Assembly (NCBI GenBank): GCA_035559535.1
Contig: DATMBG010000052.1
Span: forward strand, 1 to 64,000
Direction: 5' to 3'
Source of the DNA: Candidatus Limnocylindrales bacterium
Lineage (GTDB): Bacteria > Moduliflexota > Moduliflexia > Moduliflexales > JAUQPW01
DNA: 64,000 bases
The position numbers and the translations under genes were made by a program. Positions 11,952 to 56,343 of this stretch are shown here, piece by piece (position 1 is the stretch's first letter; each line of letters starts with the position of its first letter). The notes under the pieces were generated by a model. The model did not search any database, had not been told where the DNA came from, and saw only the letters and a program-made list of their open reading frames with translations.

Positions 11952-12038
11952 AGTAGGGGAGTGTGAGGGTATGGGAGTATGGGAGTACTTCCACACTTCC
12001 ACACTTCCATACTCCCATACCCTCCACACTCCCCTACT
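11952..12038. repeat. Octamer inverted repeat (locus C)
   Basis: The arm starting AGTAGGGGAGTGTG at 11952 is matched by CACACTCCCCTACT ending at 12038. Allowing one inserted base, about 32 bp pair. The pyrimidine arm is made of TTCCACAC/TTCCATAC octamer steps. It lies between the DUF35 and thiolase-fold genes. Confidence 0.82.
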
Positions 12039-12040
12039 CT

Positions 12041-13291
12041 TTAAACGGCTTCCAAAATACTTACGGTGATATAGGTTCCCGTTCCGGCATGGCTATGAAT
12101 AAGTCCACGTCGGGCGTTTTTAATCTGGAGATGGTCATTTCCCAGATGTTTCTGGATAGTCCCCTGAAGTTGCCAGAAAGCAAAAACAGCCTGCATGAGG
12201 CCTGTAGCACCTACCGGATGACCGCAGGCCAGAAGGCCACCGGAAGGGTTAACCGGTATTTTTCCAGTTAAGGTACTATGACCGGCCTCGATAAAGGGGC
12301 CTCCTTCCCCATACTTACAAAGACCCAGATCTTCGTAGGTCTGAATCTCAGAAGAAGTATAGGCATCGTGTAACTCTACAAAATCCAGTTCTTCCAGGGG
12401 GTTTGTAATTCCGGCCATCTCATAAGCCTGTTTAGCGGCCATTCGACCTCCCCGAAACGAATGAACCCCGGGGTATTTGAGATTTTTGTAATCAGACTCA
12501 GATTCGTGGGGTAACAAAATGACTTTACCGTGGGGACGATCTGCCATACGCATGCTATCGGTACCTGCGCCGATTCCGATGATTTTAACCGGTTTGTCGG
12601 TTAAGCGGGCCGCCATTTCTTCCGAAGCGAGAATACAAACTGCTGCTCCATCCGACATGGTGCAGATATCCAACATGGTCAGGGGGTCTGCAACCATGGG
12701 CGAGTTACGAACATCTTCAATGGTCAATTTCATAGGACTCTGGGCATAGGGGTTATAGAGAGCATTTCCGTGATTTTTTATGGAGACCAGGGCCATTTGT
12801 TCTACGGTGGTACCAAACTCATGCATATGCCGTCGGACCATCATGGCGTAGTAACCGGTATAAAATCCTCCCACAGGGTAATCAAAATTAGTATCGGAGG
12901 CGTGGGCGATAAATTCGTTGCCTTTCCAGGTGCTGACACGAGACATGGTTTCAAATCCAAAGGCCACGCAAACATTCATTCGGCCTGAGGCAACAGCCTC
13001 CCATGCTGCTTGAAAACAGAGCCCACCCGTAGCTCCCCCTCCTTCGATCCGTTTAGAAGGCTTGGGGCAAAGTCCGAGGTAGTCTTGAACCATAGAGGCC
13101 GCTTTCAATTGCCGGGTAAAGTGATCTGAAAAATAAGACGCTACGCTTCCATCGATCATATCCCTTGTCAGGTTTGGGACATCGTTCATGGCATAGTCAA
13201 AGGCCTGTTTGACCATATAACGAAAATCCATATCCGGGTGAGCTTTGGCAAATTTTGTAATTCCACCCGATACCATGTAAACGGGGCGCAT
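12041..13291 (-). CDS. SCP2/Ltp2-type thiolase-fold protein lacking the nucleophilic cysteine
   Basis: A 416-residue thiolase-superfamily protein of the non-specific lipid-transfer (SCP-x/Ltp) branch. The nucleophile segment reads EGGGATGGLC (83-92) where active members have E-x-x-C-A-S-G-G-L, so Gly86 replaces the catalytic Cys. The C-terminal Cys is also absent (HAGTGTY). The CoA-site CGHPVGATG is kept. Loss of both cysteines with a DUF35 partner gene next door resembles the Ltp2-ChsH2 retro-aldolase of steroid side-chain breakdown. A C-C lyase role on a branched hydroxyacyl-CoA is therefore more likely than thiolysis (inference). It is often annotated simply as acetyl-CoA acetyltransferase. 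Confidence 0.82.
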   Translation of the reverse strand: MRPVYMVSGGITKFAKAHPDMDFRYMVKQAFDYAMNDVPNLTRDMIDGSVASYFSDHFTRQLKAASMVQDYLGLCPKPSKRIEGGGATGGLCFQAAWEAVASGRMNVCVAFGFETMSRVSTWKGNEFIAHASDTNFDYPVGGFYTGYYAMMVRRHMHEFGTTVEQMALVSIKNHGNALYNPYAQSPMKLTIEDVRNSPMVADPLTMLDICTMSDGAAVCILASEEMAARLTDKPVKIIGIGAGTDSMRMADRPHGKVILLPHESESDYKNLKYPGVHSFRGGRMAAKQAYEMAGITNPLEELDFVELHDAYTSSEIQTYEDLGLCKYGEGGPFIEAGHSTLTGKIPVNPSGGLLACGHPVGATGLMQAVFAFWQLQGTIQKHLGNDHLQIKNARRGLIHSHAGTGTYITVSILEAV

Positions 13292-13299
13292 TTATTACA

Positions 13300-13407
13300 G
13301 GTATGGAGGTATGGAGGTAGGTATGGGGGTGCGGGGTATGGGAGTAAGTATTTATACTCCCACCCTTCCATACTCCCACCCTTCCATACTCCTACCCCTC
13401 CCATACT
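13300..13407. repeat. Octamer inverted repeat (locus D)
   Basis: Purine arm 13301-13347 (GTATGGAGGTATGGAGG...) and pyrimidine arm 13356-13407 (ACTCCCACCCTTCCATACTCC...) around an AAGTATTTAT centre. It lies between the thiolase-fold gene and the B12-binding subunit gene. Its last bases run up to the stop codon of the latter. Confidence 0.78.
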
Positions 13408-19064: not shown

Positions 19065-20204
19065 TTATTTCAACAGATTGGCGGCAATTATCAATCTTTG
19101 TATTTCTGAAGTTCCCTCGTAAATTTCGGTAATTTTAGCATCCCGAAAATAACGTTCCACGGGATAATCTTTGATATAACCGTAACCTCCGTGAATCTGA
19201 ACGGCTTTATGGGTTGCCCGCATAGCCGTTTCAGAAGCAAAGAGTTTTGCCATAGAAGACTCTTTGGTATGACGAACGCCTTTATCTTTCAGGGTTGCCG
19301 CTTTTAAAGTTAAAAGTCGGGCGCACTCAATTTCGGTGGCCATATCTGCCAGCATCCATTGAATAGCCTGGAAGTTAGAAATCGGCTGCCCAAACTGGAC
19401 CCGTTCCTTGGAGTATTTAATCGATTGCTCTAGGGCCGCCTGGGCAATTCCCACGGCCTGGGCGGCAATTCCAATGCGTCCGCCATCCAGGGTTTCCATG
19501 GCTATTTTAAAACCTTTTCCCAACTCCCCAAGAAGGTTCTCTTTGGGAATTAAACAATCTTCAAAAACCAGAGATGCCGTGTCGGAGCCGCAAATTCCTA
19601 ATTTTTTTTCGATCTTACCTATGGAAAACCCCGGGGTATCCAATTCGACAATGAAGGCACTGATGCCATGATGACCTTTGGTTTTATCTGTAACTGCAAA
19701 TAGAATGCAAATATCCGCATGGGCTCCATTGGTTGTGAAGTTTTTTCGTCCATTGATAACCCATTTATCTCCTTTTAACACGGCCGTCGTTTGTTGATTG
19801 GCAGCGTCAGAACCGGCGTTGGGTTCTGAAAGGGCGAAGCACCCTAACCACTCGCCCTTGGCCAGGGGAACCAGATACTTTTGTTTTTGCTCCTCGGTCC
19901 CGTTCCGTAGAAGCGGATCACATACCAGGGAGTTATTAACCGACATAATGACAGAAGTACTGGCACAGGCCTTAGCAATTTCTTCCATGGCCAGAACATA
20001 ACTGACCGTATCAACTCCGGCTCCCCCGTACTTTTCCGGAACCATCATCCCCATCAGGTTAAGTTCTGCCATTTTCTTAACCGTTTCCGCCGGATATCGA
20101 GCCTCTGCATCGATCTCCGCGGCCAGCGGAGCCACTTCCTTTTCAGCAAACTCCCGAACCATCTGCTGAATCATTTTTTGATCTTCCGTAAGCTCAAATC
20201 TCAT
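19065..20204 (-). CDS. Acyl-CoA dehydrogenase (3 of 3), butyryl-CoA dehydrogenase-like
   Basis: A 379-residue FAD enzyme. Seen: [37 protein letters not shown] and [11 protein letters not shown] with the catalytic Glu. Sequence and length resemble short-chain (butyryl-CoA) dehydrogenases. It is encoded immediately downstream of 3-hydroxybutyryl-CoA dehydrogenase and thiolase and upstream of EtfBA, so butyryl-CoA to crotonyl-CoA is the likely step (inference from context). Confidence 0.93.
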   Translation of the reverse strand: MRFELTEDQKMIQQMVREFAEKEVAPLAAEIDAEARYPAETVKKMAELNLMGMMVPEKYGGAGVDTVSYVLAMEEIAKACASTSVIMSVNNSLVCDPLLRNGTEEQKQKYLVPLAKGEWLGCFALSEPNAGSDAANQQTTAVLKGDKWVINGRKNFTTNGAHADICILFAVTDKTKGHHGISAFIVELDTPGFSIGKIEKKLGICGSDTASLVFEDCLIPKENLLGELGKGFKIAMETLDGGRIGIAAQAVGIAQAALEQSIKYSKERVQFGQPISNFQAIQWMLADMATEIECARLLTLKAATLKDKGVRHTKESSMAKLFASETAMRATHKAVQIHGGYGYIKDYPVERYFRDAKITEIYEGTSEIQRLIIAANLLK

Positions 20205-20222
20205 AGTTTAAGAGGTAATAAG

Positions 20223-20394
20223 AGTATGGAGGTGTGGAAGTATGGGAGTGTGGGGGGTATGGGAGGAGGGAAGTATGAAAAATTTTTCCCCACTCCCACA
20301 CTTCTCTCCTCCCAACATACTTCCCCACACCCATACTTTCCTACTCCCGCGCTCCCATACCCCCCACACTCCCATACTTCCACACCTCCATACT
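20223..20394. repeat. Octamer inverted repeat (locus E) with perfect 43-bp stem
   Basis: The 43 bases at 20223-20265 are the exact reverse complement of 20352-20394, with an 86-base spacer that itself consists of the same octamer steps (CACTCCCA, CACTTCTC, TACTTCCC). It is the strongest hairpin in the window. It separates the dehydrogenase gene from the 3-hydroxyacyl-CoA dehydrogenase gene. Confidence 0.92.
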
Positions 20395-20397
20395 TCC

Positions 20398-21258
20398 TCA
20401 CTCTCCAGGGTATTCATAAAAGCCTTTTCCGGTTTTTCTTCCCAGGTGGCCTGCATCGACCATTTTTCTTAGTAAGGGGCAGGGGCGGTATTTAGAGTCT
20501 CCAAAACCCTTATACAGGGTCTCCATAATAGCCAGGCAGACATCCAAACCGATAAAATCGGCCAGTTCCAGGGGTCCCATGGGTTGATTGGTACCTAACT
20601 TCATCATGGTATCGATGGCTTCCTTGGTGGCAACCCCTTCCTGGAGGGCAAATATGGCCTCGTTGATCATAGGCATGAAAATTCGATTTACAGCAAAACC
20701 CGGGGAGTCTTGAGCTTCGGCAACTACTTTATCTAGCTTTTCACAAACAGATCGGGTAACCTGGAAAGTCTCTTCGCTGGTCAGGTATCCTCGAATCACT
20801 TCAACGAGTTTCATGAGGGGAGGGGGATTCATAAAGTGCATGCCAATAACTTTCTGAGGACGTTTTGTTGCGGCACCTAATCGGGTGATGGATATGGAAG
20901 AGGTATTGCTGGCCAGAATCACCTCTTTTTCACAGATTTCATCCAGCTTTTTAAAAAGCTCCAGCTTAAGATCCTCTTTCTCGCTGGCTGCTTCTATCAC
21001 AAAGTGGACCTCTCTGAGGTCTTTTAGCCCGGTTGTCCCCCGAATTCGCCCCAAAACCTGATCTTTCTCCTGGGGTGTTAATTTCCCTTTACTCACCATT
21101 TTATTTAATCCCGAAGCAATCTTCTCCTGACCTTTTTGAACCAACTCCTGGGTTATATCTACCAGGGTGACCTCGTAGCCGGATACTGCACAAATCTGAG
21201 CAATTCCATGACCCATAGTTCCGGCGCCGATTACGCCGATTTTTTTAATTTCTGTCAT
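20398..21258 (-). CDS. hbd: 3-hydroxybutyryl-CoA dehydrogenase
   Basis: Oxidises 3-hydroxybutyryl-CoA to acetoacetyl-CoA with NAD(P)+. The 286-residue length is that of single-function HBD enzymes rather than FadB fusions. The Rossmann motif is [14 protein letters not shown] (8-21). ASNTSSI and the catalytic-His segment [16 protein letters not shown] follow, then GFAVNRI and the C-terminal dimer domain. It is encoded between the thiolase and the butyryl-CoA-dehydrogenase-like gene. The matching enoyl-CoA hydratase is not in this window. Confidence 0.95.
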
Positions 21259-37954: not shown

Positions 37955-38096
37955 GGAGGTATGGGGGTATGGAAGGTATGGGCGTGTGGGGGTGTGGGGG
38001 TATGGGAGTGTGGGAGTATGGAAGTATAGTCTTCCACACTCTCACACTTCCATCCCTCCACACTTCCACACTCCCACACCCCTATACACCTTTACT
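37955..38096. repeat. Octamer inverted repeat (locus G)
   Basis: Purine arm 37955-38028 (GGTATGGGGGTATGGAAGG... GTGTGGGAGTATGGAAG) and pyrimidine arm 38031-38090 (CTTCCACACTCTCACACTTCC...). It is the longest member and sits in the leader of livK, ending at its ribosome-binding site. Frames through it give Gly/Val/Trp- or His/Pro/Thr-rich nonsense, so it is not coding. Confidence 0.8.
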
Positions 38097-40310: not shown

Positions 40311-42182
40311 ATGGAAGAAGCATCATTTAGACCAAAAGGTCTTCATCTCATGACCTGGAATATCCGTCTTGCAAAGCACTATGCGAGGCTGATGGAGAGT
40401 ATTCAAACCGAGCCTGCCTTTCGAGACCTGGATATCTTGGTCTTACAAGAATCTACCGAAACGGAAAAAGGGTCTACAACCGAGGATATCGTTAAATGTT
40501 TAGGACCTGATTATGCCTTTCGACATGAACCGGCGCAGAGACTGCGAGGTCGGGTACAGGCCAATGCAGTGATCTGGAATACGCGAACCCTCAGGGAAGT
40601 GAACGTTGAAGTCCTTAAGTTGCCTTTGATCACCCGTAAAGACGCTCTGAAATATGGAAAGATTTTCAAGCGCAATCATCGGCTTTGCTTAAGACTGGAT
40701 GCCAGATATGAAGATCTGACCCTTCGCATCTATGCTCCCCATTTTGATACGGCAGGGGGATTATTCGGTAAATTGGTCCATTTAGATGCTATTCGACAGG
40801 ATAATGAAAACCTGCCTGTTGCCGATGCCGTATTTATTGCCGGAGATTTAAACACTTTTGGTATTCGACGCAGTCTGAATTTGAAATCCTTTCGTAACGA
40901 AGCAGCTAAACGAGATTTTGTGGATCTTTCTCAAGCCATTACGGTAACCTGGAATTCTCGTAAAGCTTATAGATATTTGCCAAGCCTGGATCAAAAACTG
41001 GACTGGATCCTCCTTAAATGTAAACTGGATTATACCTATACAACCCAAGTATTAAGAGTTCCCGGGTCCGATCATTATCCGCTGGTTACCTACATAAAAT
41101 TTCAAAAGCCCCAGGAGACAAAATGGGAGTTTTACTGGACTGCCGATTCAGCCTGGAAGGCCATGTTACAGGATTGCCAGGAGGCAAAGGTTTCCATTGA
41201 TTTCGAGTCTTACATTTTTATCGATGATGCCATAGGAAAACAATTTGTTTCTACCTTGATTCAAAGAGCACAAAGTGGAGTGAGGGTACGATTACTGGTT
41301 GATGCCTTAGGTAGTCTCTCCCTGAGTGGAGAAGCCCTCCGGGCCCTGGAAAGTGCCGGGGTTCAGGTGATTCGATACAATCCACCTACCTCCTGGATAA
41401 CTCGTCTGAAGATCTTTTCCTGCTACAATCGAGATCATCGAAAAATCCTTATCGTGGATAATCGTATAGGCTATACAGGTGGTGTGGGAATTAATGAAAC
41501 CATGTCCAATTGGCGAGATACCCAGGTTCGTATCCAGGGTCCCATTGTGGATAGTATGGCCTATGCCTTTGATTACCTGTGGAAAAAATGCTTAAAGGAG
41601 GAACAGGCAGATCATCTGGTATTGCAAAATAGTGGTGCTTTTATGTTTCGGGTTGCTTCACCCTATAGTCCCATTCATCCTATTAAGGAGGCTTATCTTG
41701 ACGGAATCAATTCTGCGCAGAATCTCGTTTATATTACAACCCCTTATCTCTTTGTTCCTCCCAGAGAGTTTTTTCAAGCGATGTTACGGGCGGTAAAACG
41801 AGGTGTCGATTTACAATTACTCCTGCCCAAGGAATCCGATCATAAAATTCTCGATCTTGCTGTCGGATATTATTTCGATAGATTATTGCGGGTCGGAGTA
41901 AAGATTTACTTATATGAGAATGCTATGATCCATTGCAAAACAGCCGTCATAGATGATCATTGGTCTACCGTGGGGAGTATGAACCTGGATACCCTCAGTT
42001 TTTACTACAACCATGAAGCCAATATTTTCAGTTTTAGTAATCGATTTAATGCAGACCTTAAGAGGCAATTTCTTCTTGACCTAAAAAATTCCCAAGAAAT
42101 TACCCTGGCGGCCTGGAAACAGCGTCCTCTTTGGAGGAAAGTTTTAGAAGTATTACTTCGACCTTTTCATATGTTTTTTTAA
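40311..42182 (+). CDS. Fusion of endonuclease/exonuclease/phosphatase domain with phospholipase D / cardiolipin synthase
   Basis: A 623-residue protein joining two phosphodiesterase folds. Residues about 8-265 form an EEP domain with all landmarks: LMTWNIR, LVLQES, APHFDT, IAGDLNTFG, DWILL and GSDHYPLV. Residues about 275-620 form a cardiolipin-synthase-like PLD pair with two complete HxKxxxxD motifs (HRKILIVD and HCKTAVID) followed by GSMNLD. No signal peptide or membrane segment is visible, unlike classical ClsA; ClsB-type enzymes are also soluble or peripheral. In some bacteria EEP phosphatases and PLD enzymes are encoded side by side. Phospholipid synthesis or remodelling is likely, but the order of reactions is unknown. 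Confidence 0.85.
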   Translation: MEEASFRPKGLHLMTWNIRLAKHYARLMESIQTEPAFRDLDILVLQESTETEKGSTTEDIVKCLGPDYAFRHEPAQRLRGRVQANAVIWNTRTLREVNVEVLKLPLITRKDALKYGKIFKRNHRLCLRLDARYEDLTLRIYAPHFDTAGGLFGKLVHLDAIRQDNENLPVADAVFIAGDLNTFGIRRSLNLKSFRNEAAKRDFVDLSQAITVTWNSRKAYRYLPSLDQKLDWILLKCKLDYTYTTQVLRVPGSDHYPLVTYIKFQKPQETKWEFYWTADSAWKAMLQDCQEAKVSIDFESYIFIDDAIGKQFVSTLIQRAQSGVRVRLLVDALGSLSLSGEALRALESAGVQVIRYNPPTSWITRLKIFSCYNRDHRKILIVDNRIGYTGGVGINETMSNWRDTQVRIQGPIVDSMAYAFDYLWKKCLKEEQADHLVLQNSGAFMFRVASPYSPIHPIKEAYLDGINSAQNLVYITTPYLFVPPREFFQAMLRAVKRGVDLQLLLPKESDHKILDLAVGYYFDRLLRVGVKIYLYENAMIHCKTAVIDDHWSTVGSMNLDTLSFYYNHEANIFSFSNRFNADLKRQFLLDLKNSQEITLAAWKQRPLWRKVLEVLLRPFHMFF

Positions 42183-43319: not shown

Positions 43320-43397
43320 CAGGAACCAGAAGTCAAAATAAGAACGATAAGATCCTTATCCTGTTGGAAATCGTTCCAGAATGACTTCTGGTTCCTG
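43320..43397. terminator. 16-bp inverted repeat between convergent genes, possible bidirectional terminator
   Basis: CAGGAACCAGAAGTCA at 43320-43335 is the exact complement of TGACTTCTGGTTCCTG at 43382-43397. A smaller GATAA...TTATC hairpin lies between. There is no T-tract, so it may be a repeat element rather than a classical terminator. Confidence 0.5.
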
Positions 43398-43413: not shown

Positions 43414-44595
43414 TTAAAAATTCAAATCTAACATTACATAGGCCCAATCTGCATCGTCGTTGCTACCCTTCAAGTCTTCCAGTGCTTTTCCAATGAAAAA
43501 GTGGGAATAACCAAAACTGATTTCCATCCGTCTGCGAAATAAATAGGGTATAACCAGATCGATCTCTTGTCCCAGATTATCCTCTCCCCGGTCATCTTTT
43601 TCTGCCAGGAAGAATTGATGTAATTCTAAAAAGAGTTTCGTGGTCCTGTGGGGAATCATGGAAAATTTAATAGCCACATCCTGAAGCCCTCGATTACCTG
43701 TATCCCGAGGAATATTAAGGAAAATATCCATAAATCCGTAGAATCGATGGTTGGTCGCAAAGAGTGTATCAAAGACCTTGATCTTATTATCTTCAAGATT
43801 ATCATCTCCTGAGAGGTAATCATACCAGAGGGTAAAGGAAGGTTTATAAATCGATTCGACCGTATAGGTTCCACGAAGTCCAACCAAAAAAGCACGAATA
43901 TCTTGAGAACCTGCCTGGCCAAATTGATAATAAGCTTCGCTGCGGTAACTAAAAGGTCCGAGATTACCCTCTAACCGGGCTCCTGTAGTAAAGCGATCGG
44001 TATCCTTGGGTTCGTCTTCCAACCAGAGAAAATAACCTGAGAGGATATGAGTTGGGACAGGTTTTACCCTGGCGTAGATCCCGTAAAAGTTAACATCATC
44101 TCCCTCACTGTTGCCGATGGGGGTTAGTCCTTGAGCAACCCCGTCGTTGATTTTCATGGCAAAGAGATCCCACTGGTCTGAAGGCCGCTCATAGGTAAGG
44201 CGAAACCCATCAAAGGCCTGGCCTTGGGGAGTAAAATCCACATTTCCTATCAAGCGCTCCTCATCAAAGCTTAGTTCCTGACGACCCAATCGGAAGGATA
44301 AGGGTTTACCGAAAAGATCTTGTACCTCAAGGTATCCTTGATGGAGATCAAAATGGTCGGCCTCAAAATCTCCAAGTGGGCTTGCTTCTTCTCCAAAAAA
44401 TCGTACATCCTGGAGTTGAATAAAAGCCTGCATACCCTCCGCTAAAGAAACGTCAAACTGGACCCGGGTTCTGAGGCTGGTAAAGGTATCAGGATCTGTG
44501 TCTTTGTTAAAATCCCTGGCATCGTACTCAAACCTCGGACGAATCTGACCACCCCATGCGATCCTTCGTAAAGGCTTGAGTTCTTCATCTTCTAC
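43414..44595 (-). CDS. Outer-membrane beta-barrel (alginate-export/porin-like) domain, read by -1 frameshift from the FecR gene
   Basis: The frame encodes a barrel of alternating amphipathic strands (FIQLQDVRFFGEE, GYLEVQDL, LSFRLGRQELSF, FDGFRLTYER) ending in a C-terminal strand YVMLDLNF, as in AlgE-like exporters and porins. The first ATG is at 44433, but clear barrel sequence continues upstream (IAWGGQIRPRFEYDARDF, SLRTRVQFDV) to 44595 with no ATG, GTG or TTG. It also has no signal peptide. Reading back leads exactly into an A10 tract where the FecR frame ends. The product is therefore probably a FecR-barrel fusion of about 615 residues made by slippage. A sequencing error in the homopolymer would give the same fusion. 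Confidence 0.75.
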   Translation of the reverse strand, partial: VEDEELKPLRRIAWGGQIRPRFEYDARDFNKDTDPDTFTSLRTRVQFDVSLAEGMQAFIQLQDVRFFGEEASPLGDFEADHFDLHQGYLEVQDLFGKPLSFRLGRQELSFDEERLIGNVDFTPQGQAFDGFRLTYERPSDQWDLFAMKINDGVAQGLTPIGNSEGDDVNFYGIYARVKPVPTHILSGYFLWLEDEPKDTDRFTTGARLEGNLGPFSYRSEAYYQFGQAGSQDIRAFLVGLRGTYTVESIYKPSFTLWYDYLSGDDNLEDNKIKVFDTLFATNHRFYGFMDIFLNIPRDTGNRGLQDVAIKFSMIPHRTTKLFLELHQFFLAEKDDRGEDNLGQEIDLVIPYLFRRRMEISFGYSHFFIGKALEDLKGSNDDADWAYVMLDLNF

Positions 44596-45257
44596 TTTTT
44601 TTTTTGACGGAATTGGCTTTCCCCTCGCCTTCCTTCTTCCCGGATTTGATCAAGTTCCTGGGGTGTTGTGCGTCGTGGAGGGTTACTGGCTGTCACCACT
44701 GCAGATTGTCCGGGACTTAATACTTCGGCAGGCTGGCCTGGACTGAGTAGACTTGTTAAGGTAACCGTTCCATTTTCTACCGATAGCCAGGTTGTATTGG
44801 TGGATCTAAAATAGCCCATGCTAAAGGCAGTAAATTTAACTCCGGCCAGGGCATTGGGAGTTTCCACTTCAAATTTCGAGCCTGGAGTTTTATAAGGCTG
44901 CGCAATAACCGCCTGGATCCTACCCCACACAAGTTTAAATAGAGAGGACTTGGCACGAGTGGTTAAGCTTAACTCGGTAACGTCTAATCGGGTATCCTCC
45001 CCTAATTCCAATCTACTTCCATCCGAGAGTTTAAGGGTCAGGCGACCCCCAACTTCGGTTCGCAGGATATCTCCGGCCTGAAGGTCCATACCTTTCCTGG
45101 CCCGGACTTCTCCCTGCCCTTGAAGGGATACCTTTACGATCCCGTTTACAGACTCTACCGACGCTAACACTTGAGATTGGGCAAACACCTCTAAAGCAGG
45201 AAACAACAGAATACCTATCGGAACAAGAATAAAGAAAATTCCCCGGTGATTGTGCAT
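44592..45257 (-). CDS. FecR-domain periplasmic protein (0-frame product of FecR-barrel gene)
   Basis: A 221-residue protein with signal peptide (FFILVPIGILLFPALEVFAQS) and one FecR domain: GMDLQAGDILRTEVGGRLTLKLSDGSRLELGEDT (about 60-93), then FEVETPNALAGVKFTAFS and a second VENGTVTLT...LSPGQ. It lacks the cytoplasmic anti-sigma helix bundle of real FecR, so it is a stand-alone sensor or wall-associated domain. Its final codons CAA AAA AAA AAG TAG contain the A_AAA_AAG slippery heptamer; a -1 shift replaces the stop with the barrel frame. Confidence 0.82.
   Translation of the reverse strand: MHNHRGIFFILVPIGILLFPALEVFAQSQVLASVESVNGIVKVSLQGQGEVRARKGMDLQAGDILRTEVGGRLTLKLSDGSRLELGEDTRLDVTELSLTTRAKSSLFKLVWGRIQAVIAQPYKTPGSKFEVETPNALAGVKFTAFSMGYFRSTNTTWLSVENGTVTLTSLLSPGQPAEVLSPGQSAVVTASNPPRRTTPQELDQIREEGRRGESQFRQKKK
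44595..44605 (-). promoter_or_regulatory. A10 tract with A_AAA_AAG slippery heptamer
   Basis: On the minus strand, ten A residues and a G precede the UAG stop of the FecR frame. The heptamer is in the correct phase for -1 slippage (dnaX type). The next -1 codons, GTA GAA GAT, enter the barrel frame. A purine-rich GAGGGG, which could act as an internal Shine-Dalgarno stimulator, lies about 15 bases upstream of the tract. Confidence 0.6.
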
Positions 45258-45430
45258 AGTTTTGAAGTCCTGTTATATCAGGATAATAGATTAGAGTGAC
45301 TGTTTTACACGTTAACAAATCATATTTTGCCCGTGTAATCTAGTAAGAATTCAAGACCTCGTCAAGCTAATTTTAAGCTAATTTTTTAAGGATCTACACT
45401 TTTGCATTTTTATCCACGAAGGACTATGAA

Positions 45431-45514
45431 AGTATGGGAGGTGTGGGAGTATGGAAGAATAAGTACTTATACTTCCCCATCCCCCTACTCCCATGCTCCC
45501 ACACCTCCCATACT
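45431..45514. repeat. Octamer inverted repeat (locus H)
   Basis: AGTATGGGAGGTGTGGGAGTATGG at 45431-45454 pairs with 45491-45514 with a single mismatch over 24 bp. The centre holds further TACTTCCC/CACCTCCC-type steps. Locus in the 312-base gap 45258-45569, which shows no gene. Confidence 0.85.
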
Positions 45515-45569
45515 TTTACCCCCTTCAGGGATAAACATTTAAAAATTGCAAAAGTAGAGGTATAGAGTC

Positions 45570-56211: not shown

Positions 56212-56343
56212 CGGTATCCTCCTATGGACGGATCCCTTCATACTGCAACCGCACGAAGGGTTGACCATTCATCCTGTTAACCGATACCAGGCGAAGTGGG
56301 GGGGGGGTTGATGATAGCCCGCCAATTCAACAGAACTTTCCTC

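Follow-up and report, generated by a model that had tools for sequence, protein, structure and literature searches.

A FecR gene and an AlgE-type barrel frame meeting at an A10 tract: a candidate two-product slippage gene

In the window (the whole stretch of 64,000 nt of DNA that was analysed) the gene for a predicted secreted FecR protein and the reading frame of an outer-membrane barrel meet, in different frames, at an uninterrupted run of ten A's. This arrangement likely gives rise to two products, a FecR protein of 221 aa and a FecR–barrel protein of about 614 aa. Concerning the frame change we lean slightly towards an RNA polymerase event on the A10 tract, by which free FecR and FecR–barrel would be made from one gene. 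Polymerase slippage is probably about twice as likely as ribosomal frameshifting, and the same two proteins would result either way. Slippage with two products is a known trick, and the present gene is a new example of it in an unusual protein class.

Arrangement of the locus

The coding features of the locus and the inverted repeat downstream of it are as follows.

45177–45257, minus strand: predicted signal peptide MHNHRGIFFILVPIGILLFPALEVFAQ, recognised by its hydrophobic core
44763–45068, minus strand: FecR domain (PF04773), residues 64–165, from a profile search
44592–45257, minus strand: FecR ORF, frame 0, short product of 221 aa, from the ORF list and the PF04773 match
43414–44595, minus strand: AlgE-type (Alginate_exp) barrel frame, 393 aa counted from GTA, own start codon absent
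44431–44433, minus strand: first ATG of the barrel frame; a start here would cost the first two strands
43320–43397, unstranded: terminator-like inverted repeat caggaaccagaagtca...tgacttctggttcctg separating the barrel gene from the PhyH gene, which converge here, from direct reading of the sequence

The FecR ORF matched PF04773 in a profile search with E=5e-14 (52.9 bits, cut-off 24), and its N-terminus has a strong signal-peptide core with a mean of 3.0 on the Kyte–Doolittle scale; all signal-peptide calls given here are from a crude hydrophobicity score and not from SignalP. The 3' end of the ORF reads CAA AAA AAA AAG TAG. The barrel frame lies one base back (frame −1) and is open from 44649 to 43414 (411 aa). 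The two frames described in the initial annotation are thus confirmed. A −1 shift at the tract yields a FecR–barrel fusion of 614 aa. Since both frames lie on the same strand with zero gap between them, FecR and the AlgE-type barrel presumably share one transcript.

The FecR protein of FecI/FecR signalling is an inner-membrane anti-sigma protein encoded beside an ECF sigma-factor gene. The FecR ORF of the window does not fit this iron-signalling class: it carries a predicted N-terminal signal peptide, the profile search gave no match to an anti-sigma N-terminal domain, and the neighbours of the locus are, by reading, a GH-like and a PhyH-like gene and not an ECF sigma-factor gene.

The barrel frame

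The barrel matched PF13372 (Alginate_exp) with E=6e-51 (173.9 bits, cut-off 25.2) in the profile search, and the match spans profile positions 4–391 of 395 (98%). An AlphaFold2 model built from 47 aligned sequences (pLDDT 86.5) has 18 strands, the first of which starts about 11–12 residues past the A10 tract. The top PDB fold match of this model is AlgE of Pseudomonas; the OmpM barrel was also matched in the profile and fold searches. According to the model, the frame codes for a complete AlgE-type barrel from the first strand on. It resembles Pseudomonas AlgE and PF13372 in its complete set of 18 strands but differs from AlgE in lacking a signal peptide and a start of its own, its N-terminus being provided by FecR.

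In the open barrel frame no ATG, GTG, TTG, or CTG is found upstream of 44433; the initial annotation had listed the first three, and CTG is absent as well. A signal-peptide-like core was looked for at the barrel N-terminus with the hydrophobicity test and none was found, as had been claimed. In contrast, all of the 60 clean homologous barrels from the GTDB collection have a start of their own and an apparent signal peptide by the same crude test, and the paralogue of the barrel in the same genome also has its own start and a signal-peptide-like stretch. The barrel has neither, while FecR has a signal peptide, and the barrel therefore needs the export signal of FecR. These findings support that the barrel cannot start or be exported by itself.

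The A10 tract

The tract and its surroundings contain the following elements; the stops were located by reading the frames in silico with 8–13 A's.

44621–44626, minus strand: Shine–Dalgarno-like GAGGGG, 19 nt before A_AAA_AAG and 16 nt before A_AAA_AAA
44596–44605, minus strand: A10 tract (T10 on the plus strand), proposed slippage site, identical in the sister species G001
44598–44604, minus strand: A_AAA_AAA heptamer, in phase, one codon before A_AAA_AAG
44595–44601, minus strand: A_AAA_AAG heptamer, in phase with FecR, as the initial annotation had it
44592–44594, minus strand: TAG stop of frame 0
44585–44587, minus strand: TGA stop of the third frame
44526–44581, minus strand: predicted hairpin of 11+5+6 pairs, 13 nt after the heptamer, −26.1 kcal/mol

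When the length of the tract was varied in silico, one additional A (A11) or the loss of two (A8) joined the frames; with 9 and 12 A's the product ends in ...SRR* and with 10 and 13 at the TAG. Both non-fusion frames thus run into early stops. It had been expected that either 9 or 11 A's would make one continuous gene; this holds for 11, whereas the 9 A product ends in ...QKKSRR* and it is 8 that has the same effect as 11.

The sister species of the same genus (contig JAUQPW010000046.1 of the MAG JZ-2.bins.100.201901, a metagenome assembly) has a FecR ORF of 221 aa, an open barrel frame of 411 aa, and exactly A10. Its geometry is identical, so the comparison with relatives called for at the outset showed a conserved tract with the stop. 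Conservation of the tract and of the frame break is seen in this one orthologue.

One has to consider that the true tract could be A11 (or A8) and the locus an ordinary single FecR–barrel ORF, altered by a sequencing or assembly error. Homopolymers are the site of the commonest indel errors, and a FecR–barrel protein is encoded by a single ORF elsewhere in the genome. We nevertheless regard an error as quite improbable, because the same A10 is present in two divergent assemblies and because the other runs of similar length speak against it. Runs of exactly A10/T10 occur three times in the genome, and longer A or T runs are absent: the three are the one of the FecR–barrel locus, a non-coding one, and a T10 inside an intact gene. 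The latter run is situated near the C-terminus of a CoxG/SRPBCC-like gene (named by reading; G000:C57, L138:1002-1571) and is in frame in both species, from which it follows that both assemblies size 10-nt runs correctly. In addition, none of the 30 A9/T9 runs inspected breaks a gene. Altogether 33 A/T runs of at least nine bases were inspected in the genome, and the A10 of the FecR–barrel locus is the only one that marks a point where one real coding frame breaks off and another takes over.

Two A9 loci (L148 and L152) had been flagged as frame breaks but turned out to be intergenic repeats running into the tract, and the gene that follows L152 has a start of its own. The T10 of the CoxG/SRPBCC-like gene, the second A10/T10 run common to both species, was likewise dismissed as a slippage site, the gene being intact and slippage unneeded. 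Runs of 10 nt inside genes are thus not unique to the FecR–barrel locus.

Selection on both halves

Over the aligned gene dS between the two species is about 0.23–0.24. Each half taken in its own frame, dN/dS for this species pair is 0.044 for FecR and 0.067 for the barrel. The codon changes in the barrel frame are 51 synonymous and 14 non-synonymous; when the sequence is read in the wrong frames, the counts are 7/58 and 3/61. Judged from these substitutions, both halves are under strong purifying selection that is specific for the frame, and hence the barrel appears to be translated in both lineages. A decaying pseudogene is ruled out by the frame-specific selection on the barrel.

The region around the tract is identical between the two species over 124 nt. 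We considered this invariant block as a sign of constraint at the RNA level; within 24 kb, however, four other identical stretches are longer, so that it ranks only fifth and carries little weight. The equal length of the A10 tract in the two species is by itself also weak evidence, since other coding runs of 7–10 nt are conserved in length as well.

Is the barrel possibly a separate gene that is started independently, either at a rare ATT at 44613 or by re-initiation after the FecR stop? The ATT is located 7 nt after GAGGGG, which is a normal Shine–Dalgarno distance. Still, we consider two separate genes highly improbable. The first conventional start is the interior ATG at 44433, with the loss of two strands; a product started near the tract would have no signal peptide and could not reach the outer membrane; and of the substitutions on the upstream side of the tract, the two closest to it leave the FecR protein sequence unchanged.

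Another explanation is phase variation, with A10 as a hypermutable contingency tract and the fusion made in cells with A11 (or A8), while A10 cells would make FecR only. Genes for surface proteins that contain homopolymer tracts are classic cases of phase variation, for which poly-A/T tracts may also be used (PMC3711429). However, exactly A10, the 'off' state, is found in both species although strong purifying selection acts on the barrel, and other coding runs of similar length are invariant between the species, which makes phase variation distinctly unlikely.

Concerning its distribution, the barrel is present in two of the four genomes of the phylum that were compared and absent from the other two. 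Among 80 related loci of the GTDB collection, a FecR within about 3 kb of the barrel was found only in the sister species.

RNA polymerase or ribosome

Transcriptional slippage is marked by an uninterrupted A/T run of about nine or more bases in a coding region and by two conserved frames that are joined when one base is added or removed. Both features are present, the run being A10 and the frames being joined by a change of its length. With polymerase slippage the shift direction has also been seen to differ from one species to another (PMC3711429). In many bacterial genomes slippage is selected against at the length of nine A's (PMC1088944). As the uninterrupted A10 exceeds this length and goes beyond the A6G that a dnaX-type site needs, it fits transcriptional slippage (PMC1088944; PMC4256274).

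A similar case is tssM1 of Citrobacter rodentium, which also codes for an envelope protein and has its poly-A run (A11) a short way ahead of the stop; extra A's in the mRNA restore the frame, frameshifting amounts to about 20%, and both length variants are needed (PMC4256274). The present gene would likewise have two length variants but differs from tssM1 in that the run is A10, that an outer-membrane barrel is encoded downstream of it, and that the short form is a predicted secreted FecR.

Two lysine tRNAs, tRNA-Lys(UUU) and tRNA-Lys(CUU), were found in the genome. The presence of both is a condition that has been linked to RNA polymerase slippage in Thermus dnaX, for which early stops in the non-productive frames have also been discussed (PMC5009743). 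The locus thus shares with Thermus thermophilus dnaX (A9, transcriptional slippage) the A-run, the early stops, and the two lysine tRNAs (PMC5009743, PMC1088944); there the templated length leads to the long product, whereas here it leads to the short one. The two lysine tRNAs therefore favour polymerase slippage and make a ribosomal shift of the dnaX type less supported. Two points count against the polymerase: slippage of the E. coli enzyme is reported to be greater on runs of T than on runs of A (PMC6260861), and polymerase slippage does not need the strong hairpin and the Shine–Dalgarno-like site near the tract.

These two elements could instead aid a programmed −1 ribosomal frameshift at either heptamer, A_AAA_AAG or A_AAA_AAA, in the manner of dnaX and with the same products, an alternative that we consider unlikely. 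The locus has in common with E. coli dnaX the in-phase A_AAA_AAG, that is, an X_XXY_YYZ heptamer, the Shine–Dalgarno-like site upstream, and the hairpin downstream. With A_AAA_AAA both heptamers are in phase, and a zero-frame stop right after the shift site is known in some dnaX genes. The duplex of GAGGGG has −8.0 kcal/mol, calculated with an assumed anti-Shine–Dalgarno sequence of the E. coli type. The hairpin ranks first among 295 mRNA windows in stability relative to dinucleotide shuffles (z −3.5). As its z value falls to only −1.7 with synonymous-codon shuffles, its stability follows in part from the protein sequence.

Unlike the E. coli dnaX site, the tract has ten A's and not six, i.e., four more than are needed. 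In E. coli AAG is read by a sole tRNA-Lys(UUU), whereas the tRNA-Lys(CUU) found here should weaken slipping on AAG. The usual spacings are 9–14 nt for a Shine–Dalgarno-like stimulator upstream and 5–9 nt for a structure downstream (PMC5009743); with 16–19 nt and 13 nt, respectively, GAGGGG and the hairpin are outside these ranges. A known recoding element was searched for in Rfam and none was found. Of the frame change at A10 proposed in the initial annotation, the short FecR and the fusion (given there as about 615 residues) are supported, whereas the dnaX-type mechanism is less so in view of the two lysine tRNAs, the spacings, and the ten A's.

FecR domains and barrels in the lineage and elsewhere

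A FecR domain is combined with a barrel at other places in the same genome. One intact ORF of 1144 aa (G000:C12:37618-41052; L242:419-3853) codes for FecR, TPR repeats, and a TonB-receptor-like barrel; the sister species has a FecR match within an open frame of comparable size (1158 aa). Like the present fusion, this protein has a FecR periplasmic N-terminus and a barrel C-terminus, but it is encoded in one ORF, has TPR repeats in between, and its barrel is of a different family. At G000:C21 (L243:907-3792) a separate outer-membrane barrel gene is followed immediately, on the same strand, by a second FecR gene. From these two cases we conclude that FecR together with a barrel is a theme of the lineage. 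Since FecR and a barrel occur in one intact ORF in the same genome, a fusion of this kind has a precedent in the lineage, and the novelty of the locus would be the slippage.

A further protein with an N-terminal periplasmic domain on an outer-membrane barrel is the stalked porin OmpM1 of Veillonella (PMC10628300; PDB 8bym), although the analogy is one of build only. The N-terminal SLH domain of OmpM serves as the link between outer membrane and wall (PMC10628300). The SLH domain and coiled-coil stalk of OmpM are replaced here by FecR, which places the fusion outside the OmpM class, and a frame change at a slippery run has not been described for OmpM.

A possible two-product gene

With FecR and the barrel as one functional gene read in two ways, most mRNAs would have the templated A10, or a count leading to the other early stop, and give the secreted FecR-domain protein of about 221 aa. 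A slip of the RNA polymerase on A10 that adds one A (or drops two) would join the frames. In the resulting fusion of about 614 aa the signal peptide and the FecR domain would stand at the N-terminus, on the periplasmic side of an AlgE-like outer-membrane barrel of 18 strands, so that FecR would be located in the periplasm and lead straight into the first strand of the channel. Such a protein would be like a stalked porin: its channel would carry a soluble domain in the periplasm, which could make contact with the wall or with a periplasmic partner. Slippage would then set the cell's ratio of free to barrel-bound FecR, comparable to the two lengths of TssM1. We infer that slippage occurs, that it is mainly transcriptional and that both products are used, and likewise what FecR may bind.

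Tentatively, and less firmly than the polymerase event itself, we propose a genus-specific, selected two-product gene in which A10 slippage sets the ratio of free periplasmic FecR to FecR-bearing outer-membrane channel. If so, the gene would itself control, through the tract, the dose of a porin that bears a periplasmic domain, and a single site could balance the free and the membrane-bound form of this domain. A barrel that can be exported only by way of slippage would add a new protein class to the few bacterial two-product slippage genes, and it would support the view that two lysine tRNAs go with slippage of the polymerase and not of the ribosome at A-runs. To our knowledge, no outer-membrane barrel expressed by slippage has been known before, and the FecR–barrel would be the first; a literature search found no paper tying together FecR domain, outer membrane, and frameshift. 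Automated annotation would label the barrel as truncated or broken despite the strong purifying selection on both halves.

Other features of the window

Positions 40311–42182 carry, by reading, a fused endonuclease/exonuclease/phosphatase-like and phospholipase-D-like gene, the middle of which (about 820 nt, 41111–41933) is absent in the sister species. A G10 (56298–56307) and a C10 (63862–63871) are apparently intergenic and are candidate hypermutable tracts. Intergenic minisatellite-like repeats of the TGGGAGTGTGGGAGTATGG type, partly in inverted pairs, are situated at about 11960–12050, 13250–13400, 20200–20400, 37990–38080, and 45430–45530, and sequence similar to several of them is also present on the contig of the sister species.
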